From assembly GCF_000717875.1 (NCBI RefSeq), contig NZ_JOCT01000010.1, positions 111,110-175,109 on the forward strand: a stretch of DNA of 64,000 bases, given 5' to 3'. A program made the position numbers and the translations under genes. Positions 20,825 through 48,234 of this stretch are shown here, piece after piece (position 1 is the first letter of the stretch; the number at the start of each line of letters is the position of its first letter). The notes beneath the pieces were generated by a model, which had not been told where the DNA came from, made no database searches, and worked only from the letters and a program-made list of their open reading frames with translations. This DNA is from Streptomyces sp. NRRL S-455. Its GTDB lineage: Bacteria; Actinomycetota; Actinomycetes; Streptomycetales; Streptomycetaceae.

Positions 20825-20865
20825 CTGATCGAGACCTCAGTTGTTGAGCGCGACCGGGAAGCGAC

Positions 20866-21672: not shown

Positions 21673-21716
21673 CACCCACACCCATCGAAATGACAAGTAT
21701 CTCCGAAAGGGGCCCG

Positions 21717-21974: not shown

Positions 21975-22020
21975 CGACCGTTGCGCAGCCCAGGACGATC
22001 CGGACCGACAGGAGGGCGTG

Positions 22021-26853: not shown

Positions 26854-26889
26854 GCAAGGGTCCCCCTTTCACCGTAAGGAGATCGCCTC

Positions 26890-27729: not shown

Positions 27730-27763
27730 CGGCCCGGGCAGTTCACCGAGAGGGCGTGGGCAC

Positions 27764-28589: not shown

Positions 28590-29089
28590 CGCTGACCGCC
28601 GGGGGTGCGGGCTGTTTCGGCGAGGCAGTCCTCGGGGCTGGGCCCGGTCGGCAGGCACAGAACCGACCAGGCCGTGGGGATGCCGGCGCTCCCGGTGGCT
28701 ACGAAGACGATCTCCCTGCCGGAGACCGGCTCTTCCGCCTGGACCGACATGAGCCGCCGTTTCTCTAAGACGAGGAGCTCGGCGAGCGTCTGAATCTCGG
28801 CGTCGAGGGGTCTGTCGTCAGTCGGCAGCGCGTCCACGACGTGGTGCGCGTGGTCGACCAGTGGCCCTGCCGCCGTCGCCATGAACGCGTTGCGGCGATC
28901 GGTGCCGAGACGGAAGGCGTCGGCGAGGAGTCTGATGGTGTCCTTACGCGGCCGGCTCACCCGGCCCCGTTCGAGATCTCGTATGGCTCGGACACTGAGG
29001 CCGGCCAAGTCGGCGAGCTCCTTCTGGGTGAGCTTGGCGCGTATGCGCATCTCTCTGAGGACTGTGCAGAAACTGGGCAGCTTGTTCAA
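28586..29089 (-). CDS. XRE-family (helix-turn-helix) transcriptional regulator, likely cluster regulator
   Basis: The 167-residue protein has an N-terminal Cro/C1-type HTH: LTQKELADLAGLSVRAIRDL, followed by ERGRVSRPRKDTIRLLADAF. The C-terminal half (about residues 75-167) has no recognised domain; it carries several acidic and aliphatic stretches. It diverges from the ATP-grasp gene at 29119 across a 29-base gap, so it may bind there and control both directions. It is coupled to the PPTase gene by a four-base overlap. Codon 108 is TTA (complement of 28766-28768), which would tie its expression to the bldA tRNA and so to development. Confidence 0.85.
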   Translation of the reverse strand: MNKLPSFCTVLREMRIRAKLTQKELADLAGLSVRAIRDLERGRVSRPRKDTIRLLADAFRLGTDRRNAFMATAAGPLVDHAHHVVDALPTDDRPLDAEIQTLAELLVLEKRRLMSVQAEEPVSGREIVFVATGSAGIPTAWSVLCLPTGPSPEDCLAETARTPGGQR

Positions 29090-29118
29090 GGCTCGACTTT
29101 CATGATGGGGAGGGTGAG

Positions 29119-30998: not shown

Positions 30999-31021
30999 TT
31001 TCTTCCAGGTAGAGGTTGAAG

Positions 31022-32344: not shown

Positions 32345-33853
32345 TCAGGCCTTGAGCCGGGCCATCCACGCCTCGACCTCGTCCGCCTGCCGCGGCAGGC
32401 CGGCCGAGAGGTTCTCATTGCCGTCCTCGGTGACGAGGATGTCGTCCTCGACGCGCACGCCGATGCCCCGATACTCCTTCGGCACCGTCAGGTCGTCCTC
32501 TTGGAAGTACAGTCCCGGCTCCACGGTCAGGCACATGCCCGGCTCCAGCACGCCCTCGACGTACATCTCGGTCCGGGCCGCGGCGCAGTCGTGCACGTCC
32601 AGGCCGAGCATGTGACCGGTGCCGTGCATGGTCCAGCGGCGCTGCAGCCCCAGCTCCAGGACCTTCTCCACGTCCATGTCGCCGAACAGGCCCCACTCGA
32701 CGAGCCTGGAGGCGAGGACGCGCTGAGCGGCCCGGTGGAAGTCGCGGTACGGGGCACCCGGCCGCACCGCCGCGATGCCGGCCTCCTGGGCCTCGTAAAC
32801 CGCGTCGTAGATCTTGCGCTGCAGGGGCGTGAACCGGCCGTTGATCGGCAAGGTGCGGGTCACGTCTGCGGTGTAGAGATTGCGGGTCTCCACGCCGGCG
32901 TCGAGCAGCAGCAGTTCACCGTCGCGGACCGCGCCGTCGTTGCGCACCCAGTGGATGGTGGTGGCGTGTGGCCCGGCGGCGGCGATCGTGCTGTAGCCGA
33001 CGTCGTTGCCCTCGACGCGGGCGCGCAGGAAGAACGTGCCCTCGATGTACCGCTCCGACGTGGCCCGCGCCTGGTCGAGGGAGCGGACGACGTCCTCGAA
33101 GCCACGGGTGGTGGCGTCGCAGGCGAAGCGCAGGTCGGCGATCTCGAACTCGTCCTTGATCCGGCGCATTTCGGAGAGGAAGACGCGGAACTCCTCGTCG
33201 CGTTCCGCAGTGACCTTCTCGGTGAGGGCCTCCTCGATGCCGGCGTCGTAGCCGCGCAGCAGGCGGACCGGGCCTGTGCCCTCCCGGAGCGCGTCGGCGA
33301 GGATGCGGACGTCCTCGCAGGGCAGGCCGAGAAGTCGCTCGTTCTCGCCGAGGCTGTTGCGGCGGCCGTCCCACAGCTCGCCGCGGTCGGAGAGCCAGAA
33401 CTCGCCGTTCTCCCGGTCGGATCGTGGCAGGAGGTAGGCGGTGGCCTCGTGGCCGCCCTCCTCCCGGGGTTCCAGCACCAGTACCCCATTCTCGGTCTGG
33501 TCGCCCGTCAGATACGTGTAGTCGGAGGAGGGACGGAACCGGTAGACCGTGTCGTTGGCGCGGACCTTCAGGTTGCCGGCCGGGATCACCAGGCGCTCGC
33601 CGGTGAAGCGGGCGGACAGCTCGGCGCGGCGGCGGGCCGTGTGCCAGGCCTGCGGGATCGGCTGCAGGTCGTGCTGCTCGGTGTCGGCCCAGCCTTGCTT
33701 CATGTTCTCGGCGAGCTGCTCACTCACGTCCCGCTCCAGACCGTTCTTGCGCTGTTCAACGGCCTCGCTCGCCTCGTCCTCCGGGATCTCCGCGGTCTCC
33801 GGGACCGGGAGTCCCCGGCCGATCTCCTGGCTCTCAAGCGTCTGCTCCGTCAC
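32345..33853 (-). CDS. pepP: Aminopeptidase P family metallopeptidase (Xaa-Pro aminopeptidase)
   Basis: The 502-residue protein has an N-terminal creatinase-like domain and a C-terminal pita-bread domain. The metal-binding residues are readable in order: LLLLDAGVETRNLYTADVTR (both Asp), TGHMLGLDVHDC (His), LTVEPGLYFQ (Glu) and GVRVEDDILVT (last Glu). HWVRNDG and the RWTMHGTGH stretch fit the substrate site. The enzyme removes an N-terminal residue in front of proline. An extended, Glu-rich N-tail of about 60 residues is typical of Streptomyces PepP. Its position inside a biosynthetic region is notable: it might be a resistant target copy or a peptide-trimming enzyme. GTG 33853 has GGAGG seven bases upstream. 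Confidence 0.9.
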   Translation of the reverse strand: MTEQTLESQEIGRGLPVPETAEIPEDEASEAVEQRKNGLERDVSEQLAENMKQGWADTEQHDLQPIPQAWHTARRRAELSARFTGERLVIPAGNLKVRANDTVYRFRPSSDYTYLTGDQTENGVLVLEPREEGGHEATAYLLPRSDRENGEFWLSDRGELWDGRRNSLGENERLLGLPCEDVRILADALREGTGPVRLLRGYDAGIEEALTEKVTAERDEEFRVFLSEMRRIKDEFEIADLRFACDATTRGFEDVVRSLDQARATSERYIEGTFFLRARVEGNDVGYSTIAAAGPHATTIHWVRNDGAVRDGELLLLDAGVETRNLYTADVTRTLPINGRFTPLQRKIYDAVYEAQEAGIAAVRPGAPYRDFHRAAQRVLASRLVEWGLFGDMDVEKVLELGLQRRWTMHGTGHMLGLDVHDCAAARTEMYVEGVLEPGMCLTVEPGLYFQEDDLTVPKEYRGIGVRVEDDILVTEDGNENLSAGLPRQADEVEAWMARLKA

Positions 33854-33978
33854 GCCGCCTCCATCGTATGGGAAAGCATGAACAATACTCCGCCCAAAAT
33901 ATTCGAATCACCCGAGTGGAGGCATTTCGGCCGATGTCAAGCCCGGAGCTGTTGTGTGGCGCACCGAATAAACTCCCA

Positions 33979-34008
33979 TTGACAGCCGGTGATCTCCGGC
34001 CTTAGCAT
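33979..34008 (+). promoter_or_regulatory. Candidate promoter of the MFS-led operon
   Basis: TTGACA (33979-33984) is an exact -35 consensus, followed after 18 bases by TAGCAT (34003-34008), four of six matches to -10. It lies about 150 bases before the GTG of the MFS gene. A perfect 6-bp inverted repeat, GGATGA-N7-TCATCC, lies between promoter and gene at about 34114-34132 and could be an operator. No other gene lies in the 302-base gap 33854-34155. Confidence 0.45.
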
Positions 34009-34155
34009 GACGAGCCATCATATAGGGCGAACGCTACGGGGGTTGTCGCCGCTGAGTCACGGCAGTTGGTTCCTAATCGGTGGCGGATCGACTTTTCTCG
34101 ACCCCAGAACCTCCGGATGATTTCGAGTCATCCATTCTGTGCTGACAGGAGAATT

Positions 34156-35409
34156 GTGTCCGAGAGTGCGTCGCCGTCGAATTCCGGACTGGGTTCCTAT
34201 CTGCGATTACTGAGGTCGCCCGGCGCTGGCGCGCTGGCCTTCTGGGGAATGGTCGGCCGGTTCCCGATCGCCATGCGCTCCATCGGCTGTCTGATGCTGA
34301 TCTCGGCCGTCACCGGATCGTTGGGCGACGCCGGCACGGTGGCGGCGGCGATGCTCATCTCTCAGGGAGTGGCAGCCCCGTTCCTCGGACGCTTGGCTGA
34401 CCGACACAGCCAGCGCAAGGTGTTGCTCACCACCTGCCTGGGTCATGCGGTCGGCATGACACTGCTGCTGGTGTCGATCGGGCTGGAGCTTCCGCTATGG
34501 GCCATGGTCGCCGCGGCCGTGGTCACCGGGTGCACTTCCGTTTCGTTCACCGGCTTCATGCGGGCGCGCTGGGCGGCGTTCGTCGACCAGAGTGCGCTGC
34601 GTACCGCGTACGCCATGGAGTCCATGCTCGACGACACGATCTTCCTCCTCGGACCGCTGCTGGTCACCGTGTTGAGCTCGTCGGTGTACCCGGCAGGAGG
34701 GCTGGTCGCCTGCGCGATTCTGACCGTGACCGGCTCGATCTTCGTGGCGCTGCACCGGCGGTCCGAGCCGACGAGCGTCCAGAAGCCGGGCGAGCGTCCT
34801 CAGCGGGCGATCACGGTGCCCGGGGTCTGGGTGCTGATGATCGCCTACGCTGGCATGGGCTTCCTGTTCGGGGCGGTCGACGTCACGATGATCGCGTTCG
34901 CCCAGGAGCGATCGGCGCCCGGTCTCGGCGGTGTGCTGCTGGCGCTGATCGCGGTGGGCAGCCTTGTCGCCGGGGCGGTCTATGGCGCCGTCAACTGGCG
35001 TGTGCCGCAGGTCAGACTGCTCGCGGTCACTACCTGTGTGCTGACGCTCAGCGCGGTCCCCCTGGCCTTCGCAGACTCCCTTCCCGTGATGGCCGTCCTG
35101 GCGGTCGTCGCGGGCGTCGCGGTCTCGCCCGCCCTGATCGCGGGCAGCACGCTCCTCGAATCGGTGGCTCCGAAGGGCGCCCTGTCCGAGGCGTTCTCCT
35201 GGCTCAACAGTTGCGGCGCCCTCGGCATCGCGTCGGGCACTGCCGTCGGCGGGCAACTGGCCGACCTGGCCACTTCTGCGCATGCCGCATGGGCGGGGGC
35301 TGCCGGCGGACTCGTCGCCCTGGTGCTGAGTCTCGTCGGACAGTCGGTGCTGCGGAGGGGGGCGTTGGCCGCGCAGCCGGCTCCTGAAATGGCAACAGCA
35401 GAACAGTGA
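34156..35409 (+). CDS. MFS transporter with an early TTA codon
   Basis: The 417-residue protein has about twelve hydrophobic segments and the MFS loop motif GRLADRHSQRKVLLTT after span 2. A central soluble loop RRSEPTSVQKPGERP divides the two halves. It is the likely exporter for the second gene set. GTG 34156 (VSESASPSNSG) has ACAGGAG five bases upstream; the longer frame from 34066 lacks one. Codon 18 is TTA (34207-34209), so translation should stall at once without the bldA leucyl tRNA. This would make the whole coupled operon subject to developmental control through polarity. Confidence 0.88.
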   Translation: MSESASPSNSGLGSYLRLLRSPGAGALAFWGMVGRFPIAMRSIGCLMLISAVTGSLGDAGTVAAAMLISQGVAAPFLGRLADRHSQRKVLLTTCLGHAVGMTLLLVSIGLELPLWAMVAAAVVTGCTSVSFTGFMRARWAAFVDQSALRTAYAMESMLDDTIFLLGPLLVTVLSSSVYPAGGLVACAILTVTGSIFVALHRRSEPTSVQKPGERPQRAITVPGVWVLMIAYAGMGFLFGAVDVTMIAFAQERSAPGLGGVLLALIAVGSLVAGAVYGAVNWRVPQVRLLAVTTCVLTLSAVPLAFADSLPVMAVLAVVAGVAVSPALIAGSTLLESVAPKGALSEAFSWLNSCGALGIASGTAVGGQLADLATSAHAAWAGAAGGLVALVLSLVGQSVLRRGALAAQPAPEMATAEQ

Positions 35410-35426
35410 AGAACGAGGACAGAGTT

Positions 35427-36293
35427 GTGAATACAGCGCATTCTGTGTCCGGGCGGGACAGTATCGGGGGCCTATCGGTTCCCCGTATCTCGTTCGATGA
35501 GTTCCTGGCCTTCGGGCGGCAAGCCCTCATCCGGGCTGACGTCCCGGTGGTCATCACCCTGCCGAAGGGCGCCCAGGGCCTGGGTCGCGACGGCGTGGCC
35601 GAGCGCCTCGGCGACATGACGGTCACCCTGTTCACCGAGCCGGGCAACAAACAGAACCGGGAGCGGTGGACTACCAGGGAGATCAGGCTACGTGAGTTCT
35701 TCGAGGACGACCGGCACATGAACGATCCCAGCACGTGGAACCGCATCGTCTCGAACTTCCGCAACAGCCCGACCGACGTCAACGCGATCCTCGGCTTCGA
35801 CGCGGGGAGGCTCTTCGACTACCGCGGCCCCATGAACGCCGCCAACCTGTGGATCAGTCACAAGGGCGTGTTCACCCAGAGTCACTTCGACGAGCTGGAG
35901 AACTTCAACATCTGCCTGGAGGGCAGCAAGCGGTTCGTCCTGGCTCCTCCCGGCTTCTGGGAGTACTACCCAAGGTCGCTCAGGCGCGGGTTCGGCGACA
36001 AGTCGCAGGTCTTCGACTTCGACGACGTGGACTGGGCGCGCTATCCGAAGCTCGCCGCCAAGCTCGCCCAGCGGCGCGAACTGGTCCTGAAGCCCGGCGA
36101 GATGCTCTATCTGCCTCTCGGCTGGTGGCACCAGGCCGAGTCGCTGGACGACATGAACATCAATATGAACTTCTGGCTGCGCGACCCGAAGATATTTCGC
36201 CGCCCGTACGTGCTTGGCGTGGCGATCTACACCGCGGTCTACCGGAAGCTCAAGGGCGTCTACAACTACGAACCGGCGGATACCACGTCATGA
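35427..36293 (+). CDS. Cupin/JmjC-type Fe(II)/2-oxoglutarate oxygenase
   Basis: The 288-residue product has the JmjC/cupin_8 core: NLWISHKGVFTQSHFDELEN supplies the H-x-D/E pair (SHFDE), a Lys-like 2-oxoglutarate anchor lies in the following GSKRFVLAPPGFWEYY, and the distal His is in LYLPLGWWHQAESLDD. Members hydroxylate amino-acid side chains of proteins or free and carrier-bound amino acids; several act in peptide antibiotic routes. GTG 35427 has GAGGAC six bases upstream; GTG 35406, overlapping the MFS stop, is the alternative. It is joined to the next gene by an ATGA overlap, so the two are translated together. Confidence 0.8.
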   Translation: MNTAHSVSGRDSIGGLSVPRISFDEFLAFGRQALIRADVPVVITLPKGAQGLGRDGVAERLGDMTVTLFTEPGNKQNRERWTTREIRLREFFEDDRHMNDPSTWNRIVSNFRNSPTDVNAILGFDAGRLFDYRGPMNAANLWISHKGVFTQSHFDELENFNICLEGSKRFVLAPPGFWEYYPRSLRRGFGDKSQVFDFDDVDWARYPKLAAKLAQRRELVLKPGEMLYLPLGWWHQAESLDDMNINMNFWLRDPKIFRRPYVLGVAIYTAVYRKLKGVYNYEPADTTS

Positions 36294-37570
36294 CCGAGCG
36301 CCAGACCATCACCCCCACCCACCGGTACCGCAACAACGACAAGCTGATCGGTATCGGCAACGAGTTCTGGGACATGTCGGAGCGCCACGGCCTGGCCGGG
36401 ATCGTGGCCGACTTCGACGCCGAGACGGGAGTCCTGCGCGCCACCGAGGGCCATGAGTTCATCCCCGCGGGCCACGAGTTCGTCAACTTCAGCTGCTGCT
36501 CGTACCTGGATCTCGACTCCCACCCCAAGGTGATCGAGGGTGCCGTCGATGCACTGCGCCGCTACGGCGTGCTCGACCACTGCATCGCCCGCAGCCGGGT
36601 CCAGATCCCCGCCATGCAGGAACTGGAGACCTCACTCGGGGAGCTGTTCGGCGCCCAGGTCGTCTGCTCCATCGCCGCCAGCACCGCGACCTTCGGCCTG
36701 CTCCCGCTGATTGCCTCCGGCCATTTGGGCAACGGCCCCCGGCCATTGATGATCTTCGACAAGAACGCCCATGTGTCGATGGCCAACGTCAAGCCGGTCT
36801 GCGCCGACGAGACCGAGGTCGTCACCTCCCGCCACCACGACCTTGAGTTCATCGAGGACATGTGCAAGAAATACGCCCAGGTCGCCTACGTCTGCGACGG
36901 CAGCGACAGCCTGGGGGGCTACGCGCCGGTGAAGGAACTCGCCGACCTCCAGGACAGGTACGGCCTGCTGGTCTACTATGACGACTCGCACTCGCTGTCG
37001 GCGTACGGCGAGCGGGGCATCGGCTACGTCCGTACGCACAACCCGGCCAAGGATGAGCGCACCATCACGGTGGTCACCCTCAACAAGGCATTCGGCACCA
37101 GCGGTGCGGCGATCGTGCTCGACGGGCAGTCCAAGGAGACGCTGCGCATCATCGAGCGTTTCGGCGGCGCCCTGAACTACTCCCAGCTCCTGGACACCGC
37201 TTCGGTGGGAGCCGGCCTCGCCTCGGCGGAGATCCACCGGACCGACGAACTGACCACGCTGCAGAGCCGCCTCTACCGCAACATCGAGCTCTTCGACTCG
37301 CTGATCCACACCGACCAGGGCGGCAGCACCTTCCCGATCCGGCTGGTGCCGATGAGCGACGTGACCGTGATCGAGGCGGGCCGTCGCGTCATCGAGGCCG
37401 GGTTCTACGTCTCCCCGGTGTTCTTCCCGATCGTCGCGCGCGGCACGGCGGGCCTGCGGGTCATGATGCGCGCGGGCCAGACCGAGCAGCAGATCCGCGA
37501 CTTGGGCAAGGTGCTGGTTGAGGTGGGCGCCCGCCCGGCCGGCCCGCTCGCGGCCGAGGCGGCCCGGTGA
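36290..37570 (+). CDS. Alpha-oxoamine synthase family PLP enzyme (KBL/AONS/SPT type)
   Basis: The 426-residue fold-type-I PLP protein matches the alpha-oxoamine synthase family. Visible are NFSCCSYLDLDSHPKVIEGA (opening substrate loop), YVCDGSDSLGGYAPVKEL, YYDDSHSLSAYGERGIGY (D-x-x-H contact) and VTLNKAFGTSGAAIVLDG with the Schiff-base Lys. Family members join an amino acid to an acyl-CoA with loss of carbon dioxide to give an alpha-amino ketone. The catalytic loop is TLNKAFG where most members have TLSKAFG, and DDSHS replaces DEAHS, so the substrate may be unusual. It is coupled to the JmjC gene (ATGA) and to the CitE-like gene (TGATG). Confidence 0.88.
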   Translation: MTERQTITPTHRYRNNDKLIGIGNEFWDMSERHGLAGIVADFDAETGVLRATEGHEFIPAGHEFVNFSCCSYLDLDSHPKVIEGAVDALRRYGVLDHCIARSRVQIPAMQELETSLGELFGAQVVCSIAASTATFGLLPLIASGHLGNGPRPLMIFDKNAHVSMANVKPVCADETEVVTSRHHDLEFIEDMCKKYAQVAYVCDGSDSLGGYAPVKELADLQDRYGLLVYYDDSHSLSAYGERGIGYVRTHNPAKDERTITVVTLNKAFGTSGAAIVLDGQSKETLRIIERFGGALNYSQLLDTASVGAGLASAEIHRTDELTTLQSRLYRNIELFDSLIHTDQGGSTFPIRLVPMSDVTVIEAGRRVIEAGFYVSPVFFPIVARGTAGLRVMMRAGQTEQQIRDLGKVLVEVGARPAGPLAAEAAR

Positions 37571-38472
37571 TGGGCGCGGCCCGGGCCATCCCCCGCAGCA
37601 TCCTGTACACGTCGGCGCTCTCCCTCGACCAGGTCGTCAAAGCCTGGTCGTACGACGCGGACCTCCATGTGATCGACCTGGAGGATTCGGTCCCGCCGCA
37701 GCAGAAGGCGGCGGCGCGAAACGTGTGCCGGGCAGCCCTGGAGAAGGCCCCCGAGCCGGCGAACGTCGCCGTGCGCGTCAACGAACTGGGCACCATGGAG
37801 GCGGTCCACGACCTGCTGATGCTTGCTGAGTGTCCAGTCAAGCCCGGCTTCGTCGTGATGACCATGGTCGACTCCGCGACTGAGGTCGCCCTGGTGCGCG
37901 ACACCCTTGCCTCGGCGGGTGTGCATCCGCAGATCTATGTGACCCTGGAGACGCCCCGTGCCGTCGCCGGCGTCGACGCAATCGCGGAGGCAGCCGACGG
38001 CCTGGTGCTCGGCTCTGCCGATCTGGCCGCCACCATGGGCGTCGAGATCACCTGGGCGAACATGCTCCCGGCGCGGCAGGCGATGGCGATGGCCTGCGCC
38101 CGCTACCGCACGGCCTGCATCGACACCGCCAACTTCCGGCTCGGTGAGCCCGCGGCGCTGGCCGAGGAGATCGCCCGCATCCACGAGCTGGGCTTCCAGG
38201 GCAAGGTGACTGTGCACCCGGCCGAACTGGCTGCGATCAACCGCGCACTGCGGCCCGATCCGGAAGAGCTGCGCCGGGCCCGGCGCGTCACCGAGGCCGT
38301 GCTAGCGGCCGACGGCGGTGTCGCGCTCCTGGACGGGAGCATGGTCGGCCCGCCATTCGCCCGCATGGCCCGTACGACGGTGGCGCTCGGGGATGCGTGG
38401 GCGCAGCGGTTCGGGCGCAGCGCCAAAGGCACGTGGAGCGACGGCGAGGAGGCAGCCCATGACCGTCGTTGA
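37570..38472 (+). CDS. CitE-like HpcH/HpaI aldolase (malyl-CoA lyase/citrate lyase beta type)
   Basis: The 300-residue TIM-barrel protein has CitE-family motifs: RSILYTSALSLDQVVKAWSY, HVIDLEDSVPPQQKAAARN (metal-binding Glu-Asp), IYVTLETPRAVAGVD and GLVLGSADLAATMG, then GKVTVHPAELAAIN with the CoA-proximal segment. Relatives catalyse reversible aldol condensation or cleavage between an acyl-CoA and a 2-oxo or glyoxylate partner. With the MaoC hydratase at 41333-41854 it could make a branched or unsaturated acyl-CoA for the alpha-oxoamine synthase. Its ATG overlaps the stop of the previous gene by one base. The 3' end overlaps the next gene by 14 bases. Confidence 0.85.
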   Translation: MGAARAIPRSILYTSALSLDQVVKAWSYDADLHVIDLEDSVPPQQKAAARNVCRAALEKAPEPANVAVRVNELGTMEAVHDLLMLAECPVKPGFVVMTMVDSATEVALVRDTLASAGVHPQIYVTLETPRAVAGVDAIAEAADGLVLGSADLAATMGVEITWANMLPARQAMAMACARYRTACIDTANFRLGEPAALAEEIARIHELGFQGKVTVHPAELAAINRALRPDPEELRRARRVTEAVLAADGGVALLDGSMVGPPFARMARTTVALGDAWAQRFGRSAKGTWSDGEEAAHDRR

Positions 38473-39388
38473 CGACACCACCGGCATCACGCCCGGAGCC
38501 GTACCCCCCGTCTCCGTCGCCGTCATCGGCACTGGGGCCATTGGCCAGGACCTGGTCAGCAAGGCGCACCGCTCCGAAATCCTGGAGTGCGCCGTGGTGG
38601 TCGGACGCAGCCCCGACTCCGCCGGCCTCCGGTACGCCGCCAGGCTCGGCTACCCGACATCGTCGGACGGGATCGACGCGATCCTCGCCGCGCCGCGGCC
38701 ATTCGATGTCGTCTTCGACGCCACCAACGCCATGGCGCACGCCGAACACTGGCGGCGACTTGAACCGCTGGGCACGCTGCTGATCGACATGACGCCCAGC
38801 AAGATCGGGCAGATGGTTGTGCCGACCGTCACCGGCACGCAGGCGCCGATGGTGCGCAACATCAACCTGATCAGCTGCGGCGGGCAGGCGTCGGTTCCGA
38901 TCGCGCACGCGCTCGCCAACCGGTTCGACGTGGAGTACATCGAGGTCGTCTCCACCGTGGCCTCCACAATCGCGGGCCGCGCGACCCGGCTGAACCTCGA
39001 CGAGTACGTGGCCACGACGCAGCACGCCGTCACCGCGTTCTCCGGTGTACGCGACACCAAGGCGGTCCTCAACATCAGCCCTGCCGTCCCCCCGGCACCC
39101 TTCCGGACGGCCGTCCACGCGGTCGCCCCGGGAGCCGACGCCGAGGCGGTGCGCGCCGTCGTCGCCACAGCGGCCGAACAGGTCCGGGCCGTCCAGCCCG
39201 GCTACGAGGTCGTCGCCTGTACGGTGAGCGGCGACCGGATCACTGTCTCCCTGGAGGTCATGGCGGACAGCGAGGTGCTTCCGCCGTACGCCGGGAACCT
39301 CGACATCATCAACTCGGCGGCCATCATGGTCGCCGAGCAGCATGCTGCCCGGCTCATCTCGGCAGTCCGGACGGGGGAGCGCCGATGA
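38459..39388 (+). CDS. Acetaldehyde dehydrogenase (acylating), MhpF/DmpF family
   Basis: The 309-residue protein has [19 protein letters not shown] (NAD-binding loop), [17 protein letters not shown] and [18 protein letters not shown] with the catalytic Cys of this family. Later, [16 protein letters not shown] matches the C-terminal signature. The enzyme interconverts an aldehyde and acyl-CoA using NAD and in catabolism channels acetaldehyde from the aldolase encoded next. Here it is embedded in a biosynthetic operon without any aromatic meta-cleavage genes, so it may run in the reducing direction or use another aldehyde. GAGGAGG lies just upstream of ATG 38459. Confidence 0.9.
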
Positions 39389-40401
39389 GCTCCGTGACGA
39401 TCCACGACCCGACGCTGCGCGACGGCCAGCACGCGGTGCGGCACCAGCTCGGCGCCGCCCTGCTGCGTGGGTACGCGGAAGCCGCCGACGCCGCGAGGAT
39501 CCCGGTGGTGGAGGTGGGCCACGGTAACGGCCTGGGCGCCTCCTCGCTCCAGGTCGGACGGGCCGCAGTCAGCGACGACGAGATGCTGTCGACCGTGCGG
39601 GAGGCGCTGACCACCAGCAAGATGGGCGTCTTCATGCTGCCCGGCTGGGGCACCTCCGCCGATCTGCGCAAGGCTGTCGTGCACGGGGCCGACATCCTCC
39701 GTATCGGTGTGCACTGCACCGAGACGTCGCTGGCCGAGCGCCACCTCGAATTCCTGCGGGCAGAGGGCGCCGAGGCGCATTGCGTGCTGATGATGAGCCA
39801 TATGGCAACGCCCGCCGAGCTGGCCGAGCATGCGGCGAAGGCCGTGGGGTACGGGGCGCAGGCGGTCGGCATCATGGACTCCGCCGGCCACTTCCTGCCC
39901 GAGGACGTCACCGAGCGGATCGGCGCGATCGCCGGGACCGTCGACGTGCCCGTGATCTTCCACGGGCACAACAACCTCGGCATGGCCGTCGCCAACTCGG
40001 TGGCCGCCGCCGGGGCGGGCGCCACGATCATCGACGGCTGCGCACGCGGCTTCGGTGCCGGGGCGGGCAACACCCAGCTGGAGGTGCTCGTTCCGGTCCT
40101 GGAACGCACCGGGTTCCGCACCGGAATCGACCTGTACGCGCTGCTCGACGCCGCCGAGTTCGCGGAGCGGGAACTCATGCCCGCACCACCGGTCACCGGC
40201 TCACTGAGCATCGTCAGCGGTCTGGCCGGAGTCTTCTCAGGGTTCAAACACCAGGTGCTCGACCACGCCGTGCGCGCCGGGGTCGACCCGCGCGACGTGT
40301 TCTTCGAACTCGGCAGGCGCCAGGCCATCGCCGGTCAGGAGGACTTGATTGTCGACGTCGTCGCCGAGCTGAGCACCCGTAAGGACGGCAGGGTCGCATG
40401 A
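39385..40401 (+). CDS. 4-hydroxy-2-oxovalerate aldolase, MhpE/DmpG family
   Basis: The 338-residue HMGL-like TIM barrel shows [19 protein letters not shown] (catalytic Arg, Asp and His), [17 protein letters not shown] and [17 protein letters not shown] with the two metal His, followed by the C-terminal communication domain. It normally splits 4-hydroxy-2-oxoacids into pyruvate and an aldehyde passed through a tunnel to the acylating dehydrogenase; the preceding gene encodes that partner with an ATGA overlap. In a biosynthetic cluster the pair may instead join an aldehyde to pyruvate to build a hydroxy-oxoacid. The next gene overlaps by four bases. Confidence 0.92.
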
Positions 40402-41354
40402 CAGGACCGTTGATGATTACCGCCGGGGACATGGCGGGCGAGGAGCGTCTGCTCGGCGTGATCGACGCGCTGGCCGACGCGTTCGCCGATCTCTCCGCGG
40501 GCAGGACCGCCTCGCCGTCGCGGACCGTCGTCCAGCACGGCCTGCAGCGGGAGCTGCTGGCAGGGACGGCGGTCTGGGAGCGGCGTGGAGTGGGCAGCGT
40601 CAAGATCACCACGCTCACTCCGGACAATCCCGACCGCGGCCTGCCGCTGATCCACGGCGTGGTGGTGCTCACGGACCTGGAGACCGGGCGAGTCACGGCG
40701 CTGCTGGAGGGCGCCGAGCTGACCGCCGTCCGCACGGGCGCGGTCGCGGCTCTCGCGACCCGCCTGTGTGCCCCGAAGGACGCTGAGGACCTAGCCCTCA
40801 TCGGTGCCGGGGTGCAGGCGCGGGCGCTGGTACGGGCGGTGTCGGCGGTCCGCCCGGTTCGCTCGGTGCGGGTGTTCTCTCGCACCCGTGCCCGTACGGA
40901 GACGTTCGCCCAGTGGGTACGGGACACATCGGGCCCCGCGGTGCAGGTCACGGTGTGCGACACCGCCCGGGATGCCGTGCTGGACGCCCAGATCGTCTGC
41001 ACGGCGACCTCGACCAGCGACCGCACGCACCTCGTGGCCGCCGACTGGTTGTTCCCCGGGGCACACGTCAATGTGATCGGCGGCACCCACGAGGACGCGG
41101 TTGAGGTCGAACCGGCGCTGCTCGCGGACGCGTTCGTCGCCGTGGAGAAGCGGTCCGTAGCCGTCGAGGAAGCCGCCGAGGTACGGGCCGCGCTCGCCGC
41201 AGGACTGATCGGCGAACATCAGCTGGTCGAACTGGGCGCGCTGGTGGACGGGTCGGCCGCAGCGGATGGCCGTACCTCGGTGTTCCGCGGCGTTGGCATG
41301 GCCATCGAGGACACGGCCGCTGCGACAGCGCTCTACGAGGCTTCGTGCGGCTGA
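40398..41354 (+). CDS. Ornithine cyclodeaminase / mu-crystallin family protein
   Basis: The 318-residue protein has the OCD/mu-crystallin pattern: [40 protein letters not shown] (the highly conserved T-x-x-R-T-G-A), a Rossmann loop [17 protein letters not shown] and [15 protein letters not shown]. Family members include amino-acid and ketimine reductases and cyclodeaminases that work through an imine and NAD(H). It could reduce or cyclise an amino-ketone from the alpha-oxoamine synthase, or reductively aminate the oxoacid from the aldolase. Its ATGA overlap couples it to the aldolase. The 3' end overlaps the convergent MaoC gene by 22 bases. Confidence 0.9.
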
Positions 41355-41854
41355 GGGGCATCGTGCCGCGTCTCGCGGCAGCGGACCATGAAGGAGCGCT
41401 CGAACACGATTACCGTCTCCCCGGTCGACTTCCTGCCCGTCGTCTCCACCGTGACGATCCCATGCCCCGGGCGGGACTCGGACAGCCGCTTATGGAGGAT
41501 CCGGCTCTCGGCGTACAGCGTGTCGCCGACGTACACCGGGTCCTTCAAGCGGACCTTGTCCCAGCCCAGGTTGGCCACCGCCCGTGCGGAGAGGGCCTGC
41601 ACGGTCATGCCGCCGATCAGGCAGAGTGTGATCCCGCTGTTGACGAGGACCCGCCCGTACTCGGCGCCCTCGCCGTAGGCGCGGTCGAAGTGCAGCGGGT
41701 GCTGGTTCATGGTGAGCAGGGTCAGCCAGGTGTTGTCGGTCTCGGTGATGGTGCGGCCCGGCCAGTGCCGGATCAGCATTCCGGCCTCGAAGTCCTCGTA
41801 GTCCCCGCCGTGCTCCTCCACGTACTCATTGTCCCGAACGCGGCGCAGCGTCAT
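41333..41854 (-). CDS. MaoC-like hot-dog dehydratase/hydratase
   Basis: The 173-residue single hot-dog protein has YEDFEAGMLIRHWPGRTITE and NQHPLHFDRAYGEGAEYGRV, where D-x-x-x-H is replaced by the N-x-H-P-L-H pattern of MaoC enoyl-CoA or mesaconyl-CoA hydratase relatives, then VNSGITLCLIGGMTVQALS and VGDTLYAESRIL. It adds or removes water on acyl-CoA thioesters. With the CitE-like aldolase in the same gene set it forms the aldol/dehydration pair also seen in malyl-CoA/mesaconyl-CoA metabolism. It is on the opposite strand, starts at ATG 41854 and overlaps the OCD gene 3' end by 22 bases. Confidence 0.85.
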   Translation of the reverse strand: MTLRRVRDNEYVEEHGGDYEDFEAGMLIRHWPGRTITETDNTWLTLLTMNQHPLHFDRAYGEGAEYGRVLVNSGITLCLIGGMTVQALSARAVANLGWDKVRLKDPVYVGDTLYAESRILHKRLSESRPGHGIVTVETTGRKSTGETVIVFERSFMVRCRETRHDAPQPHEAS

Positions 41855-42005
41855 GCGTTGATCTCCCTTGTGCGATACGGCGGTTGCCGGGCGGTGCGAC
41901 TGTAGGCTATCCACATCGCGGATGAGCACCTGTCTGACATGGGCACATGCCATCCGTACCGGATTTGGTGTCACGAGTGGATCGGAAGGGTCGGGGGGAA
42001 GGCGC

Positions 42006-43370
42006 ATGAGTGCGCTCGTGGAGGTCGGTACGCAGGCGCCGTCGGGCCACCCGTGGTTCGGCAACCACCGCATGGCCACGCCGGCCCTGCCCCCGGCCAC
42101 GATCCGCCGGATGCTTGACCACGAGATACGGGACACCGGCTGGCCGTACCAGCGGCTGCTGCCCGCAGCGCCCATTGTGCTGCCGCGCGCATCGTACGCG
42201 GAGTTGTTCCAGGTGACCGCCGCGCTGCTCGACCTGGTGCGCCGCACCGCGCTGGAGACGGCCACCAGCACGGAGGGTCGGCTGGCGGCGTACCGCATGC
42301 CAGAGAGTGAGCACCAGCTCTTCATGGCCGATCAGTTTCTTGAGGAGCGGTACGCGGACTGCGTGACCCGCCCGGACATCGTGATCGGTCCGAACGGCCC
42401 GCAGTTCCTGGAGTTCAACGTCAGCGGGGCGCTCGGCGGCCCTGTGGAGGTGCGTTCCCGCCTGGCGGTCTGGCGCGACCTGTACGCCGACGACCAGGGT
42501 CGGGTGCCATTCAGCAGCCAGGACCCCTTCGCAGTACGCACCGAGATGTTCCGCGGCCTGTGCGCGGAGCTGGGCGTGGCGCCCCGCGTGGCGGTGCTGG
42601 GCAGTGCCCGCGACCAGGGCGGCTTGACCCGCTACTTCGACATGCAGACCGAGTACTTCGCCAGCCGAGGCCTGACCGCGCGATTCTTCGAGCCTGAGGA
42701 CCTCTACCAAGCCTGGGACTGCCCGCCGCACCTGCGCTACCGGGTCGGGCTGAGGGACTTCACCATCCCGGACTGGCTGGAACTGGGCATCGACACCGCG
42801 CCCGTACAGGATGCCCTGGACCACGGCTGCCTGCTAGTGGGCACCCAGACATCCACCTTCCTGTCCAGCAAGCTCACCATGGGGCTCCTGTCGGAAGGCC
42901 GCCCGTGGATGAGCGCCGCCGAGCAGGCCCTGGTCGACCGGTACCTCCCGTGGACGCGGGTGCTGTCCCACCGCTTCACGCACCGGGGCGACCGCAAGGT
43001 CGACCTCGTCGGGTACGCCGTGGACAACCGCGAGTCGCTGGTGCTCAAGGCGAGCATCGGGATGAGCGGCAAGCAGGTCGCCATCGGCCGCGAGACGGAT
43101 CCGGCGGAGTGGGAGACGGCGGTGATCGCAGCTGCCGAGGCGGGCACCAGCATCGTCCAGGACTTCGTGTCCCCGCGCACCTGCCGCCTGTCCCTGGCCG
43201 CCGACGGCGCGGACGAGCCCCACGACGCCGACATCGCACCGGTCCTCGGCCCGCTCCTCTTCGGCGGCCGCCCAGCGGGCATGCTCGCCCGCTTCTTCGG
43301 CGACGGCACAACCGGCATCGTCACCGTCCACGGCACCCACAGCTCCGACAACTGCGTGGTCGCCGTCTGA
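42006..43370 (+). CDS. ATP-grasp-like ligase (circularly permuted type), paralogue B
   Basis: The 454-residue protein is a paralogue of the product of 29119-30444. Aligned landmarks are ERYADCVTRPDIVIGPNG, FLEFNVSGALGG (E-x-N), FFEPEDLYQ, STFLSSKLTMGLLSEGRPWM, DRYLPWTRVL, LVLKASIGMSGKQVAIGRE and SIVQDFVSPRT. Conservation of order but clear divergence suggests two ligases with different substrates. Amide bond formation using ATP is the likely role, with products of the preceding genes as one partner. ATG 42006 has GGGGGAAGG about four bases upstream. It diverges from the MaoC gene across 151 bases and ends the second gene set. Confidence 0.65.
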   Translation: MSALVEVGTQAPSGHPWFGNHRMATPALPPATIRRMLDHEIRDTGWPYQRLLPAAPIVLPRASYAELFQVTAALLDLVRRTALETATSTEGRLAAYRMPESEHQLFMADQFLEERYADCVTRPDIVIGPNGPQFLEFNVSGALGGPVEVRSRLAVWRDLYADDQGRVPFSSQDPFAVRTEMFRGLCAELGVAPRVAVLGSARDQGGLTRYFDMQTEYFASRGLTARFFEPEDLYQAWDCPPHLRYRVGLRDFTIPDWLELGIDTAPVQDALDHGCLLVGTQTSTFLSSKLTMGLLSEGRPWMSAAEQALVDRYLPWTRVLSHRFTHRGDRKVDLVGYAVDNRESLVLKASIGMSGKQVAIGRETDPAEWETAVIAAAEAGTSIVQDFVSPRTCRLSLAADGADEPHDADIAPVLGPLLFGGRPAGMLARFFGDGTTGIVTVHGTHSSDNCVVAV

Positions 43371-44100: not shown

Positions 44101-44445
44101 TCAGCCTCGGGTGAAGGTGAAGGTGATCCCTGCCTGCCCCGCCAGTTCACCGCCGGACCCGAGCAGGGACACCGTTCCCTTCGCGCTCACCTCCGCGCTG
44201 AACGTCACCTCGTTCAGCTGGAACTCGCCCGCGCGCTGGGGCAGCGAGGCGATCACGTCCTGCATCGTCGTGACGAAGTCGCCGAGGCGGGAGCGGAGTT
44301 CCTCGGCAGGGATCTCGGTGCGGGCGGCCCGCCATTCTTCGAGGCGTCGCAGGGTCAGCCGGTCGGTGCGACCCGAGTCGGTGTCCTCCAAGCCGAGGAC
44401 GCTGATCGTCTTCGCGGTGTCAGGAGCGGGCTGGATCTGAGGCAC
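44101..44445 (-). CDS. Pepco-like small protein linked to the CHAT protease
   Basis: The 114-residue product has a helical middle (RLTLRRLEEWRAARTEIPAE) and a C-terminal beta module FQLNEVTFSAEVSAKGTVSL followed by LGSGGELAGQAGITFTFTR. The last part matches the peptidase-co-occurring (Pepco/Trypco-like) small domains described next to CHAT and trypsin-like proteases in bacterial immunity and cell-death gene sets. It may be a substrate, sensor or inhibitor of the adjacent protease. GTG 44445 has GAGGAGAG six bases upstream and overlaps the CHAT gene by 26 bases, so the two are co-translated. Family recognition is by eye. Confidence 0.7.
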   Translation of the reverse strand: MPQIQPAPDTAKTISVLGLEDTDSGRTDRLTLRRLEEWRAARTEIPAEELRSRLGDFVTTMQDVIASLPQRAGEFQLNEVTFSAEVSAKGTVSLLGSGGELAGQAGITFTFTRG

Positions 44446-45688
44446 GGGGTCTCTCCTCGGGTGTCGGGCGGACGTGCAGGCCGGGATCGGCGTAGGCGGC
44501 ATACGTGAGGCCCAGCGGGTTGCGCAGCGTGTACAGCAGGTGCAGGCGGGACTCGAGCAGTGCTCTGCCCAGCGGGATCCTGCGGACGAGGAAGCGTTCG
44601 TACAGCGCCGTGGAGAACGCGGCGGCGATGTCGTCGGGGATCTCGGTCTCGGTGCCGATGAAGCCGCGGTTGCCGTTCATGAGGAAGAGGTACGGGAACG
44701 ACGGCGCTCCCGGGGCGCGCACCCGGCCCGACCCGCAGGCGTTCATCATCACCAGCGGCAGGTCGAAGTCGCGCACGTCCTGGCTGGCGCCGAGGGCGAC
44801 GAGGTCCGCTCCGAGGGCGCCCAGCGTGATGCGCGAGTGGTGTCCCGCTCCGCTGAGTTCGATCTCGGAGGCGAGTGTGTCGTCCGAGCGCGTGTAACAG
44901 TGACAGGCGAAGTGCTGTACCTGGTCGGGCAGTTCGCGCCGGGTGCCGTCGAGGAGGAGCCGGGGGTCGAAGATCTGCTCGGCCAGGCCCGGCCCGCGCT
45001 CCGCGCCGTCGGGGTACGGGCCTTCGAGGTCGATGTGCGCGCTTGCGGCACCGCTGAACCAGGCCAGCTCTTCGACGGCTCCTTCGAGGTGCTCGTAGTA
45101 CAGGTAGCGGGCGGGGACCCGGCCGTAGGGGCCGGTGTGCAGGGTAAGGCCGCCGTGGACCGGGGCGGGCAACATGGCCCGGCGCACCACGCACGAGAAG
45201 CCCACGAGGCTCCGGCAGGCGGTGATGAAGTCGTCCGGGGTCTCGATGGGCGCGCCCGGGAACATCCGGAACAGCGGCAGGAACTCCAGGGGCAGGAAGC
45301 CGTCCCGGCCGCCGACGCACTCGACGAGCGGGGGCGGCAGTTCGGGGTTCATGCCGTACGGCAGGGCGTCGTTCCAGAACGCCTGGAGTTCCTTGAGGAC
45401 GGCCTGCTGTCCGCCGAAGAGGATGAAGAGCAGGGTGCGGCCGAGGCCGTGCAGGCTCTGGAAGACCCGGTTGAGGTCCTTGTCCTCGACGTCGAACGCG
45501 GTGAGTTCGTCCTTGAGGCGGGTCAGACCCCGGTCCAGTTCCTGGCGGACCCTCAGCAGCGCGTCGCTGCCGAGCAGAGTGGCGCGCACGGGCGCGACGC
45601 CGGGACGCTGGGCGGTGAACTCCAGCCGGATCGCCTCATCGGTGGTCAGGACACGTACGGAGACGTCCGGCGGCCGCGCCTCGTTCAT
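44420..45688 (-). CDS. CHAT-domain (caspase-like) protease
   Basis: The 422-residue protein has its CHAT caspase-fold domain in about residues 170-400. The catalytic His lies in VQHFACHCYTRSDDTL and the catalytic Cys in PLVMMNACGSGRV, the standard spacing and wording of CHAT proteases. The N-terminal 150 residues are helical and Leu-rich (LGRTLLFILFGGQQAVLKEL) and may receive a signal. NRGFIGTETEIPDDIAAAFS is the conserved strand-helix after the Cys. ATG 45688 overlaps the upstream membrane-protein stop (ATGA). The operon order membrane protein, CHAT, Pepco-like suggests a membrane-linked sensor or effector controlled by proteolysis. Confidence 0.88.
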   Translation of the reverse strand: MNEARPPDVSVRVLTTDEAIRLEFTAQRPGVAPVRATLLGSDALLRVRQELDRGLTRLKDELTAFDVEDKDLNRVFQSLHGLGRTLLFILFGGQQAVLKELQAFWNDALPYGMNPELPPPLVECVGGRDGFLPLEFLPLFRMFPGAPIETPDDFITACRSLVGFSCVVRRAMLPAPVHGGLTLHTGPYGRVPARYLYYEHLEGAVEELAWFSGAASAHIDLEGPYPDGAERGPGLAEQIFDPRLLLDGTRRELPDQVQHFACHCYTRSDDTLASEIELSGAGHHSRITLGALGADLVALGASQDVRDFDLPLVMMNACGSGRVRAPGAPSFPYLFLMNGNRGFIGTETEIPDDIAAAFSTALYERFLVRRIPLGRALLESRLHLLYTLRNPLGLTYAAYADPGLHVRPTPEERPRASDPARS

Positions 45689-48234
45689 GCGTCGCCTGCC
45701 GCCCCTGCCGGGGCCTGTACCTCTACCTTGAGGGCGACGACCTGGACCAGGTGGCCCGCCTGGTAGAGCTGGAACCACACCTCGTGGCCGCCCTCCTCCT
45801 CGGGCAGCCGGAACTCGAAAACTGTCTGCTGCTCGTTCTCGACAAGGAGGTTCCTGCGCTGTGGCAGGGGTGTGAGCGTCGAACTGTCGGCCATGGCGTC
45901 GAAGGACACCGTACGGGAGTCCCTGCCGCCCTCGACGCGTACCGGCTCGAAGACGAAGAAGTCCCGGCCCGGAGGGCTCTCGACGACCGACGGGAGGTCA
46001 CGGGCGCGTGCGTCGCGCACGACGGAGACGAACAGCTTCACCCGCCGCCCCGCCGGTGCCGTGACCACGCCCCCCTCGGCCCGTACGTCCTGCTGCCCCC
46101 GGTCCAGCTCGATCGCGAGGTAGCCGACGAAGTTCGACAGGGCGGGGCCGGCCACGGACTCCTTCACCGAGGAGTGGATCGCGGCGCGGACGTCCCGCTC
46201 GAACTGCCGGTGCAGTTCCGTCAGATGGTTCTTCAGGTGGCCCTTCAGGCCTTCGGCGACGGGACCGGCCGCCCGGCCGGCGACCTCCCGCGCGAGGGCG
46301 CTCACATCGAGGTCCGCGCCGGCGGCGCCGGCCGGGAACCGCGCATCGAGTGAGGCGTCCCTCTCCCGGACCGCCTGGCGTACCTCGGCGCGTACGCCGC
46401 TGCGCACCCGTAGCGCCACGAGGTCGGCGAGTTCGTCGAGCCGGGCGCCGTCGGGAAGCTCCGGCTCCTGCGGCCGGTGCCACCCGGATCGGTCCGGGGG
46501 CTCGTCACCGCTCAGCGCGCCGGCCAGCCGGATCATGTACGGGCCCGAGGGGTCCGGCGGCAGGGTGATGTGCATGCGCTTGGCCAGGTCGTACCGGTAG
46601 ACCTCGACCGCGTCCGCCTTGGCTTGGCTCACCTCGGCCAGCAACCTGCGCGCCTGCACCAGCGCTATCGCCGCCACGACCAGCGGCCCCCAGACGAGCG
46701 GGACGGGCCGCCAGTCCGTGTAGCGGAAACCGCCGAAGCCGGTGAGCGCGATGAGCAGCCAGGCACCCGCCGTGCCCAGGGCCGCGGCGATGGTGATCCG
46801 CCAGACGAGGACGCCCCGCTCCCCGCCCCGCACCTGTCGCAGGACCTCGTCGGAGGCGACCAGGGCGATCCGGGGCCAGACCTCGTCGATGACGAGGCCG
46901 GTGGTCAGAACCGTACGCCGGTGGACTTCGTTCACGGCGGCAGACCGCAGGGGATGTGCGAGACGCCGCCACCAGGTGGAGACGCTGCCCGGAGTCGAGT
47001 CCCACTCGCCCAAGCGGCGCTCCCGTACCCGCTCCCGCTCCCGTTCCCGGTAGCGTTCCCAGGCCTGCTCCCGCTCCCAGTCCCACTCGCCCTCCGGCGA
47101 CGACCACCCAGGCCCGTACCCGTCATGCCCGCGCGACAGCCGGCCGGAGCCATCCGGACGCCCCGCAGGCCCGGCATCCTCCCGAGCCAGCCCACGTACG
47201 CGCCGGGCCATCTCGGCCGTCCAGCCCCGCGGCTGTCCGCTGCCCGTCCACAGCAGTACGACGTTCTGCACCAGCAGCAGAGCGGCACCGGCCACGGCCA
47301 GCCAGCCAACCCGCAGCAGCCGTTCGCCGGAGTCCGCTGCGCTCCACGGCTCCCCGGAGGACATCGCCCACGCGACACTGCCCAGCGGGACCAGAATCCC
47401 CGCGAGCTGCGCCCCCGGCGGAGCCGTCCGGCCGCGACCACCGGCGGTCCTTCGACGGAGAGCGGAGGCGAGGCAGAGCGCACCGACGACGAGCAGCGGA
47501 CCGCCCACCACGACACCGCCCGCCCACCACGCGGCTACGGTCTCACCCCGCAGCGCGAAACCCGCCACCACACCGCCCGCCCCCAGGGCCCCGGCGCCCC
47601 CGAACACCTTGAGGTACCTGTCCTCGACCGACCAGTCCTGCGCATCGGACAGCCAGAAACCCGCGGCCAGTGCCACCATCGCACCACCGAGGGCCCAGGC
47701 CGCCCACAGAGGCCCCTCAGCCGCGAAACGGGCGGTGAGCCAGGCCCCGCACGCCTCGGCCAGAGTGAAGGCAGCGATGGTGAGGACGCCGTCGGACGGG
47801 GTGTGGCCACTGGCCGAGCCATAGCGGCCGCTGGCACTGGCGGTACGCCAGGACCCCACGCCGAGCAGCGCAAGGAACACACCTCCGGCCGCCCAGGCCG
47901 TCACGTCCTCCTGGCCGCGGGACAGCCTGGCGATGATCACCGTCAGTTCGCCCACACAGACCGTCGCCAGGATCCCAGTCGTGTACAGGTGCAGCGTCCG
48001 GGTTTCCCCCTGACGAGTGGACTGGCGGCTGCGCCGGACACGAGCGACGGCCGCCTCGGCACACCACGCGGCGGCCGCCGCGACCACCAGCCACCCGCTG
48101 AGCAGCCACAGACCGTGCGCCGCAGCGCCGTGCACGGGAACGAGCACCACACCCGCGCCGCCCACGGCGACCAGGACAGCCGCGGCCGTCGCGAAGAAAG
48201 CGACGCCCCGCGCCGTGCCCGTGCTCCCCGCCAT
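45685..48234 (-). CDS. Large polytopic membrane protein, CHAT-operon partner
   Basis: The 849-residue protein has an N-terminal half with about eight to ten membrane spans (residues about 10-335), then an extremely charged linker (EREQAWERYRERERERVRER, about 395-415), two further spans (about 480-530: ITIAAALGTAGAWLLIALTG) and a long soluble C-terminal part. The latter contains coiled-coil-prone stretches (AEGLKGHLKNHLTELHRQFE) and an all-beta end (FEFRLPEEEGGHEVWFQLYQ). I do not recognise the family. It is the first gene of the CHAT operon, with ATG 48234 behind GGGGA; the stop overlaps the CHAT start. It could be the sensor or the cleaved effector of the system. Confidence 0.75.
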   Translation of the reverse strand: MAGSTGTARGVAFFATAAAVLVAVGGAGVVLVPVHGAAAHGLWLLSGWLVVAAAAAWCAEAAVARVRRSRQSTRQGETRTLHLYTTGILATVCVGELTVIIARLSRGQEDVTAWAAGGVFLALLGVGSWRTASASGRYGSASGHTPSDGVLTIAAFTLAEACGAWLTARFAAEGPLWAAWALGGAMVALAAGFWLSDAQDWSVEDRYLKVFGGAGALGAGGVVAGFALRGETVAAWWAGGVVVGGPLLVVGALCLASALRRRTAGGRGRTAPPGAQLAGILVPLGSVAWAMSSGEPWSAADSGERLLRVGWLAVAGAALLLVQNVVLLWTGSGQPRGWTAEMARRVRGLAREDAGPAGRPDGSGRLSRGHDGYGPGWSSPEGEWDWEREQAWERYRERERERVRERRLGEWDSTPGSVSTWWRRLAHPLRSAAVNEVHRRTVLTTGLVIDEVWPRIALVASDEVLRQVRGGERGVLVWRITIAAALGTAGAWLLIALTGFGGFRYTDWRPVPLVWGPLVVAAIALVQARRLLAEVSQAKADAVEVYRYDLAKRMHITLPPDPSGPYMIRLAGALSGDEPPDRSGWHRPQEPELPDGARLDELADLVALRVRSGVRAEVRQAVRERDASLDARFPAGAAGADLDVSALAREVAGRAAGPVAEGLKGHLKNHLTELHRQFERDVRAAIHSSVKESVAGPALSNFVGYLAIELDRGQQDVRAEGGVVTAPAGRRVKLFVSVVRDARARDLPSVVESPPGRDFFVFEPVRVEGGRDSRTVSFDAMADSSTLTPLPQRRNLLVENEQQTVFEFRLPEEEGGHEVWFQLYQAGHLVQVVALKVEVQAPAGAAGDA

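Follow-up and report, generated by a model that had tools for sequence, protein, structure and literature searches.

A conserved biosynthetic gene cluster of Streptomyces sp. NRRL S-455, best read as a sister of the ketomemicin genes, and its repeated linkage to M24 peptidases

Composition and boundaries of the gene block

A stretch of 64,000 nucleotides from Streptomyces sp. NRRL S-455 (contig NZ_JOCT01000010.1, positions 111,110 to 175,109; hereafter the window, in whose own coordinates all positions are given) was analysed for a block of genes built around an alpha-oxoamine synthase (AOS). On comparison with related loci, the block at 32345-43370 is a real, conserved and dedicated biosynthetic cluster, free of non-ribosomal peptide synthetase (NRPS) genes, with the following features:

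32345-33853, minus strand: aminopeptidase P (Xaa-Pro aminopeptidase, M24 and AMP_N domains; PF00557 174 bits, PF05195 50 bits)
34156-35409, plus strand: MFS exporter (PF07690 86.8 bits)
35406-36293, plus strand: JmjC/Cupin_8 Fe(II)/2-oxoglutarate oxygenase (PF13621 105 bits)
36290-37570, plus strand: AOS, homologue of the ketomemicin protein KtmB (NF005697 512 bits)
37570-38472 (alternative GTG start 37567), plus strand: CitE/HpcH-type aldolase, KtmA homologue (PF03328 79.6 bits)
38459-39388, plus strand: acylating aldehyde dehydrogenase (AldDH) of the DmpF type (TIGR03215 302.5 bits, cut-off 282)
39385-40401, plus strand: 4-hydroxy-2-oxo-acid aldolase (HOA) of the DmpG type (TIGR03217 347.9 bits, cut-off 286)
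within 39385-40401, plus strand: HOA communication domain (PF07836)
40398-41354, plus strand: OCD/mu-crystallin-family reductase (PF02423 191 bits)
41333-41854, minus strand: MaoC/mesaconyl-CoA-hydratase-type dehydratase, KtmC homologue (PF19315 76.5 bits, PF01575 53.6 bits)
42006-43370, plus strand: ATP-grasp C-N ligase of the glutathionylspermidine-synthetase/YgiC type (predicted fold)

Coordinates and family profiles confirmed a claim of the preliminary description of this DNA, namely that seven co-directional genes, exporter first, run from 34156 to 41354 with overlaps of 1-14 bases (successively 4, 4, 1, 14, 4 and 4 from the MFS to the OCD gene, the third becoming 4 with the GTG start). 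The MaoC and ATP-grasp genes said to follow this run do both belong to the block, but the former lies on the minus strand, convergent with the OCD gene and divergent from the ATP-grasp gene. The genes between 34156 and 43370 were likewise real, although the extent given to the block had overlooked the aminopeptidase P gene at 32345-33853, which is conserved with it.

For comparison, 20 AOS relatives were aligned and 71 named loci were fetched, each extending no further than 10 kb to either side of its AOS match and some being truncated by contig ends. Active-site residues were invariant wherever the proteins were matched: the JmjC HxD...H triad (H160, D162 and H242; 61/61 loci), the pyridoxal phosphate (PLP) lysine of the AOS (Lys266; 71/71), Glu127 of the CitE-like aldolase (69/69), Lys69 of the OCD-family protein (70/70), and AldDH Cys140 (56/56) and HOA His193/195 (55/55), which we take to be catalytic. 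With curated cut-offs exceeded, a communication domain present and these residues retained, AldDH and HOA were assigned as a DmpFG-type pair. The best solved-structure match of the OCD-family protein was Delta1-pyrroline-2-carboxylate reductase (6t3e, 132 bits). The cluster ligase, for which ATG 42006 is the preferred start, gave no Pfam match at E<=10 and a PDB sequence search was empty at E<=1; its predicted fold is that of an ATP-grasp enzyme, which together with its acid-activating residues places it in the GspS/YgiC type.

The boundaries of the block were examined by comparing mechanically called open reading frames (ORFs) of the window between 20000 and 56000 with 27 of the 71 loci, within the fetched flanks of at most 10 kb. 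Syntenic counterparts were restricted to genes between 32345 and 43370; none was found in the 27 loci for the regulator at 31016, the ligase at 29119, the PhyH gene at 26890 or the ORFs from 43542 to approximately 47500. The latter region includes a CHAT-domain peptidase-like gene (44420-45778, minus strand) that adjoins the cluster and is not conserved alongside it. On the other side, at 17033-27729, lies an NRPS-like set comprising an Asp aminotransferase-type PLP enzyme, a condensation domain, a hydrolase, an adenylation protein, a condensation-adenylation protein and PhyH.

Physical proximity, and the ATP-grasp-like gene at 29119-30444 that is paralogous to the cluster ligase, might suggest that the block supplies tailoring genes to this NRPS-like cluster (approximately 17000-30444). 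We regard this as highly improbable, as synteny is not shared. Five relatives were followed for another 14-20 kb to the left; none of 21 window ORFs tested (9284-32239) was closely matched there, matches to the NRPS and hydrolase genes being just 30-38% identical and confined to two of the five. Across the 27 loci, the NRPS genes gave scattered matches of 31-37% in five or six. A link of the block to the NRPS-like genes or to 29119-30444 was rejected on these grounds. The two ligases of the preliminary description are thus reduced to one (42006-43370), the gene at 29119-30444 being only 30% identical to it, matching the cluster ligase alone in the 27 loci and probably belonging to the neighbouring NRPS-like set.

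Conservation and relation to the ketomemicin genes

Presence was scored at >=40% identity in the 62 loci whose AOS was >=65% identical to that of the window, and in the nine other loci. Among the 62, the CitE, OCD and JmjC genes were each present in 61, MaoC in 59, AldDH and HOA in 53 each, ATP-grasp in 48, MFS in 40 and aminopeptidase P in 32; among the nine, MaoC was found in all, and CitE, AldDH, HOA and OCD in three each. The order MFS-JmjC-AOS-CitE-AldDH-HOA-OCD was co-linear in 38 of the 71 loci, including six of Serratia and that of Xenorhabdus hominickii, and the cluster ligase went unmatched in the six Serratia, the Xenorhabdus and the Nocardia loci. A second arrangement, AldDH-HOA-JmjC-AOS-CitE-OCD-ATP-grasp-MaoC-M24, was seen in Streptomyces, Kitasatospora and others, with MaoC and M24 at other positions in Micromonospora and with AldDH and HOA missing from five Salinispora genomes. 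Recurrence of the same genes across phyla indicates that the gene set is more than a chance assembly. Streptomyces goshikiensis carries a second, reduced locus with only the JmjC, AOS and ATP-grasp genes (L061:9045-12650).

Within the window's family, 394 genomes sampled without regard to the pattern gave an AOS match at E<=1e-60 in 40 cases. Besides the window's own, nine of these genomes had an AOS of >=70% identity (four being loci already within the 71), and in all nine the CitE, AldDH, HOA, OCD and MaoC genes lay nearby, together with JmjC in seven, ATP-grasp in seven, M24 in six and MFS in one. The other 30 had an AOS of 40-45% identity, and 11 of their loci (42-44%) were examined; AldDH, HOA, OCD, JmjC, ATP-grasp and M24 were absent from all 11, of which five encoded KtmA, KtmB and KtmC at 59-79% identity and three of these also KtmD, KtmE and KtmF.

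These last genes belong to ketomemicin (ktm) biosynthesis, for which PMC11943689 lists an aldolase, a PLP-dependent C-acyltransferase, a dehydratase, an ATP-grasp ligase, an amidinotransferase and a dehydrogenase, and attributes the ketomethylene unit to KtmA/B/C. A reference ktm locus was assigned in Salinispora by gene content, not by name: three of the five Salinispora genomes with a window-type cluster encode a second CitE homologue (34-35%), and the surrounding locus has the full ktm gene content in two, the part that was read in the third being consistent with it. The window CitE-like aldolase is 34.9% identical to KtmA over 261 residues (E 1e-37) and was assigned as its homologue, as was the window MaoC to KtmC (52.4% over 170 residues; 52-55%), and the window AOS shares 43.5% identity over 398 residues (43-44%) with the protein taken as KtmB in Salinispora. 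A comparison with the window at E<=1e-5 detected neither KtmD, a PGM1-type ATP-grasp protein that carries PF18604/PF18105, nor KtmE or KtmF. With three of the six ktm genes absent, membership in ktm proper was rejected; the homology of KtmA/B/C alongside the unmatched KtmD/E/F points to a shared logic of carbon-carbon bond formation, and the window cluster is best read as an undescribed sister of ktm.

The AldDH/HOA pair, which sets the block apart from ktm, belongs to families that are usually catabolic by name and general knowledge, and the preliminary description had allowed that a catabolic route could count against its proposal. A catabolic or assimilatory operon in which HOA and an acetaldehyde dehydrogenase serve meta-cleavage or amino-acid breakdown is nevertheless most unlikely. 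Cluster HOA copies are 74-100% identical to that of the window (19 genomes; Actinomycetota and Enterobacterales), against 29-50% for other HOA-like copies in carrier genomes, a divergence that suggests more than catabolic carry-over. Furthermore, the AOS, ligase and exporter co-segregate with the pair, and the families identified for the conserved block include neither a hydratase nor a ring-cleavage gene. Co-conservation, and the distance of the cluster HOA from HOA copies of the same genomes, led to rejection of the catabolic operon. A precedent for such a pair is reportedly found in the SanM/SanN proteins of nikkomycin, an aldolase and its interacting partner that furnish a 4-hydroxy-2-oxo acid; nikkomycin is a peptidyl nucleoside, and we know of no AOS/CitE/MaoC logic in its pathway.

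Another HOA was present in all eight genomes whose cluster lacks the gene, as opposed to 6 of the 19 with a cluster HOA when only matches of >=37% identity are counted (Fisher P 0.0014); three of these 19 genomes hold four more matches, at 29-33%, that fall outside the count. Supply of HOA in trans is only suggested by this, because five of the eight genomes are Salinispora. The L029 genome was left out of the searches for further HOA and aminopeptidase P copies.

More distant versions were also encountered. Those of Pseudomonas protegens and Trinickia (L067:5873-17052 and L069:5635-13539) combine HOA (48-51% identical to the window HOA), AldDH, a carbamoyltransferase, AOS, CitE, MaoC and OCD, to which P. 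protegens adds SDR and MFS genes and an ATP-grasp-like gene scoring below the Pfam cut-off. The Nostoc version (L079:44-16979) adjoins NRPS, Asp/Asn hydroxylase, PhyH oxygenase and carbamoyltransferase genes. Two Streptomyces carbamoyltransferase variants carry an arginyl-tRNA synthetase-like gene (L155:3918-5981 and L033:14537-16600) beside HOA or SDR genes (PF00750; TIGR00456 238 bits, under the cut-off of 262), and each genome has no other match to it at E<=1e-40. Its protein may confer self-resistance or supply an amino acid, and an arginine-like product is hinted at for these variants. The carbamoyltransferase accompanies AOS/HOA/AldDH variants in the two Streptomyces, in Nostoc, in P. 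protegens and in Trinickia fusca, and would presumably carbamoylate the alcohol arising from the HOA step.

Association with M24 peptidases

The window aminopeptidase P has AMP_N and M24 domains with the metal ligands kept, and its best solved-structure match is aminopeptidase P 5wze (218 bits); against the NCBIfam model PRK10879 (Xaa-Pro aminopeptidase) it scored 239 bits, under the cut-off of 465. A further copy is encoded elsewhere in the window's own genome, as in all 11 searched genomes with a linked aminopeptidase P. In a tree of 41 rows that included 22 of 33 cluster copies, that of the window among them, the 12 copies of the second arrangement formed one clade (100/100), nine Streptomyces cluster copies fell near Streptomyces copies from elsewhere in genomes, and the L021 copy, which lies at the opposite flank of its cluster, took a third position. 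Aminopeptidase P would thus have been recruited to the cluster at least two times, probably three; the exact number is uncertain because the nine Streptomyces copies have an unlinked one (L100) as a neighbour in the tree.

Another type of linkage was found in Serratia, where the AOS is present in 9 of 30 genomes and a creatinase/prolidase-type M24 gene (family assigned by Pfam, NCBIfam cut-offs not being reached) lies approximately 3.9 kb away in all nine. Of the 21 genomes without the AOS, two had the same M24 gene, with none of 16 other ORFs of the Serratia locus nearby. As the nine carriers are all of one genus, they may represent one event and not nine.

Metal ligands were kept in the cluster copies, and the L021 peptidase has Thr at one substrate-pocket His position (numbering after E. 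coli). At position 300, which immediately precedes the substrate His, Ile occurs in 21 of 22 cluster copies, spanning all three cluster lineages, and Leu in 19 of 19 others, a column singled out post hoc; its proximity to that His suggests altered binding in the cluster peptidases. General convergence of these peptidases was unsupported, with 3 convergent against 2 control columns of 222, and only column 300 standing out.

The repeated association of M24 genes with the cluster points to Xaa-Pro peptidases as either targets of the product or enzymes that process it, and the aminopeptidase P copy is accordingly a candidate for either a self-resistance copy or a trimming peptidase. A maturation role would take the form of a warhead capped with an amino acid by the ATP-grasp ligase, exported by the MFS protein and uncapped by aminopeptidase P. 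Its precedent is the removal by PepN of the cap from leucylblasticidin S, as given in PMC4664946, and it agrees with the conserved metal ligands of the window copy and with the distribution of M24 genes, which occur in 32 of 48 loci with the ligase and 0 of 14 without it (the 62 loci). We consider this role possible but doubtful, given the further copy in 11/11 searched genomes, the Serratia genomes in which an M24 of another subfamily stands beside the AOS (the ligase being unmatched in the six Serratia loci), and the Ile/Leu difference at position 300, which suggests altered binding.

Proposed pathway and comparison with known systems

Taking the above together, the block is probably an NRPS-free sister of ktm that makes an amino-ketone or ketomethylene pseudodipeptide, possibly one with M24 peptidases as its target. 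This reading is the best supported because of the KtmA/B/C homology and the co-segregation of the remaining genes across genera and phyla. The substrates, the order of steps, the product and the role of the peptidase that we infer are as follows. AldDH would reduce an acyl-CoA (by default acetyl-CoA) and pass the aldehyde to HOA, which would add pyruvate to give a 4-hydroxy-2-oxo acid. The CitE-like aldolase would couple a 2-oxo acid, probably this HOA product, with malonyl- or acetyl-CoA, and the malyl-CoA-type adduct would be dehydrated by MaoC. The AOS would then carry out a decarboxylative condensation between the acyl-CoA and an amino acid, yielding the amino-ketone or ketomethylene pseudodipeptide; the OCD-family enzyme would act as the hydride donor, the part played by KtmF in ktm; the JmjC protein would hydroxylate; and the ATP-grasp ligase, in most actinomycete versions, would add an amino acid or amine. 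The product would be exported by the MFS protein, and the aminopeptidase P copy would protect against it or trim it. The order of chemical steps in ktm itself was reportedly described by Kawata et al. 2017. An undescribed route to an amino-ketone or pseudopeptide, as proposed in the preliminary description, is hence partly upheld, through homology and co-segregation, with a predicted product and one ligase in place of two.

Several observations weigh against this reading. In an AOS tree of 39 rows (33 hand-picked of the 71 loci, plus the window, ktm and an outgroup, with stop letters in translated matches converted to X), the three KtmB rows fell outside the 33-row clade that contains the window AOS (90/97), with long branches flagged. 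AldDH or HOA is absent from 9 of the 62 loci, and ATP-grasp from 14, among which at least L038 is truncated by contig ends. Formation of a peptide bond would hence not be universal; L061 retains JmjC, AOS and ATP-grasp alone. OCD enzymes are mainly known as C=N reductases or cyclodeaminases, and with a KtmF-type reductase absent the hydride-donor step may differ. To our knowledge, no metabolite of the cluster is known.

The OCD family bears equally on a variant of the same pathway, in which the product would be a cyclised amino-acid antimetabolite and not an open ketomethylene pseudodipeptide, for example with a proline-, pipecolate- or pyridone-like ring derived from the amine of the AOS product, the cyclic imine being reduced by the OCD-family enzyme. 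The Delta1-pyrroline-2-carboxylate reductase match and the missing KtmF homologue speak for such a product, the Serratia, Xenorhabdus and Nocardia loci without an ATP-grasp match are as a free amino acid would predict, and the presence of an aminopeptidase P copy would agree with a compound resembling Xaa-Pro. We nonetheless think it rather unlikely, since the KtmA/B/C homology favours ketomethylene logic and a ring-forming step was not identified among the genes.

A tentative wider proposal is that amino-ketone pseudopeptides of this undescribed, NRPS-free kind are widespread, that the actinomycete and Serratia products target Xaa-Pro-cleaving M24 peptidases, and that producers, for their own protection, have recruited an extra M24 gene several independent times: aminopeptidase P at least twice and probably three times, and a prolidase-type enzyme once more in Serratia. 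The family would then span Actinomycetota and Enterobacterales, with distant versions in Pseudomonas/Burkholderiaceae and Nostoc. A multi-genus sister cluster with its own precursor pair and peptidase offers a testable hypothesis of product, target and resistance. The compact, eight-gene Serratia/Xenorhabdus operons provide a small expression system.

A search of the open-access literature, subscription journals being outside its scope, found no description of the window cluster, nothing relevant on its gene combination and no gene cluster for arphamenine. Among solved structures, Alb29 (PDB 8xha) is one of the four best-matching AOS enzymes, at approximately 309 bits against the window AOS. 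The ligase resembles Cp1B of E-64, which likewise has an hGSH-synthetase/YgiC-like fold with RxD...ExN residues and forms a pseudodipeptide, but the E-64 route is fungal, starts from epoxysuccinate and lacks an AOS carbon-carbon bond. With ketomemicin, known from Salinispora, Streptomyces and Micromonospora, the cluster shares a homologous aldolase, AOS and MaoC, an ATP-grasp ligase, a reductase and independence from NRPS; it differs in lacking KtmD, the KtmE amidinotransferase and the KtmF MDR dehydrogenase, and in adding JmjC, AldDH, HOA, OCD, another ATP-grasp family and aminopeptidase P. According to PMC11943689, the ketomemicins and arphamenines are the only known natural ketomethylene pseudopeptides, and arphamenine inhibits an aminopeptidase; the proposed product would resemble arphamenine as a ketomethylene pseudopeptide and possibly in having an aminopeptidase target.

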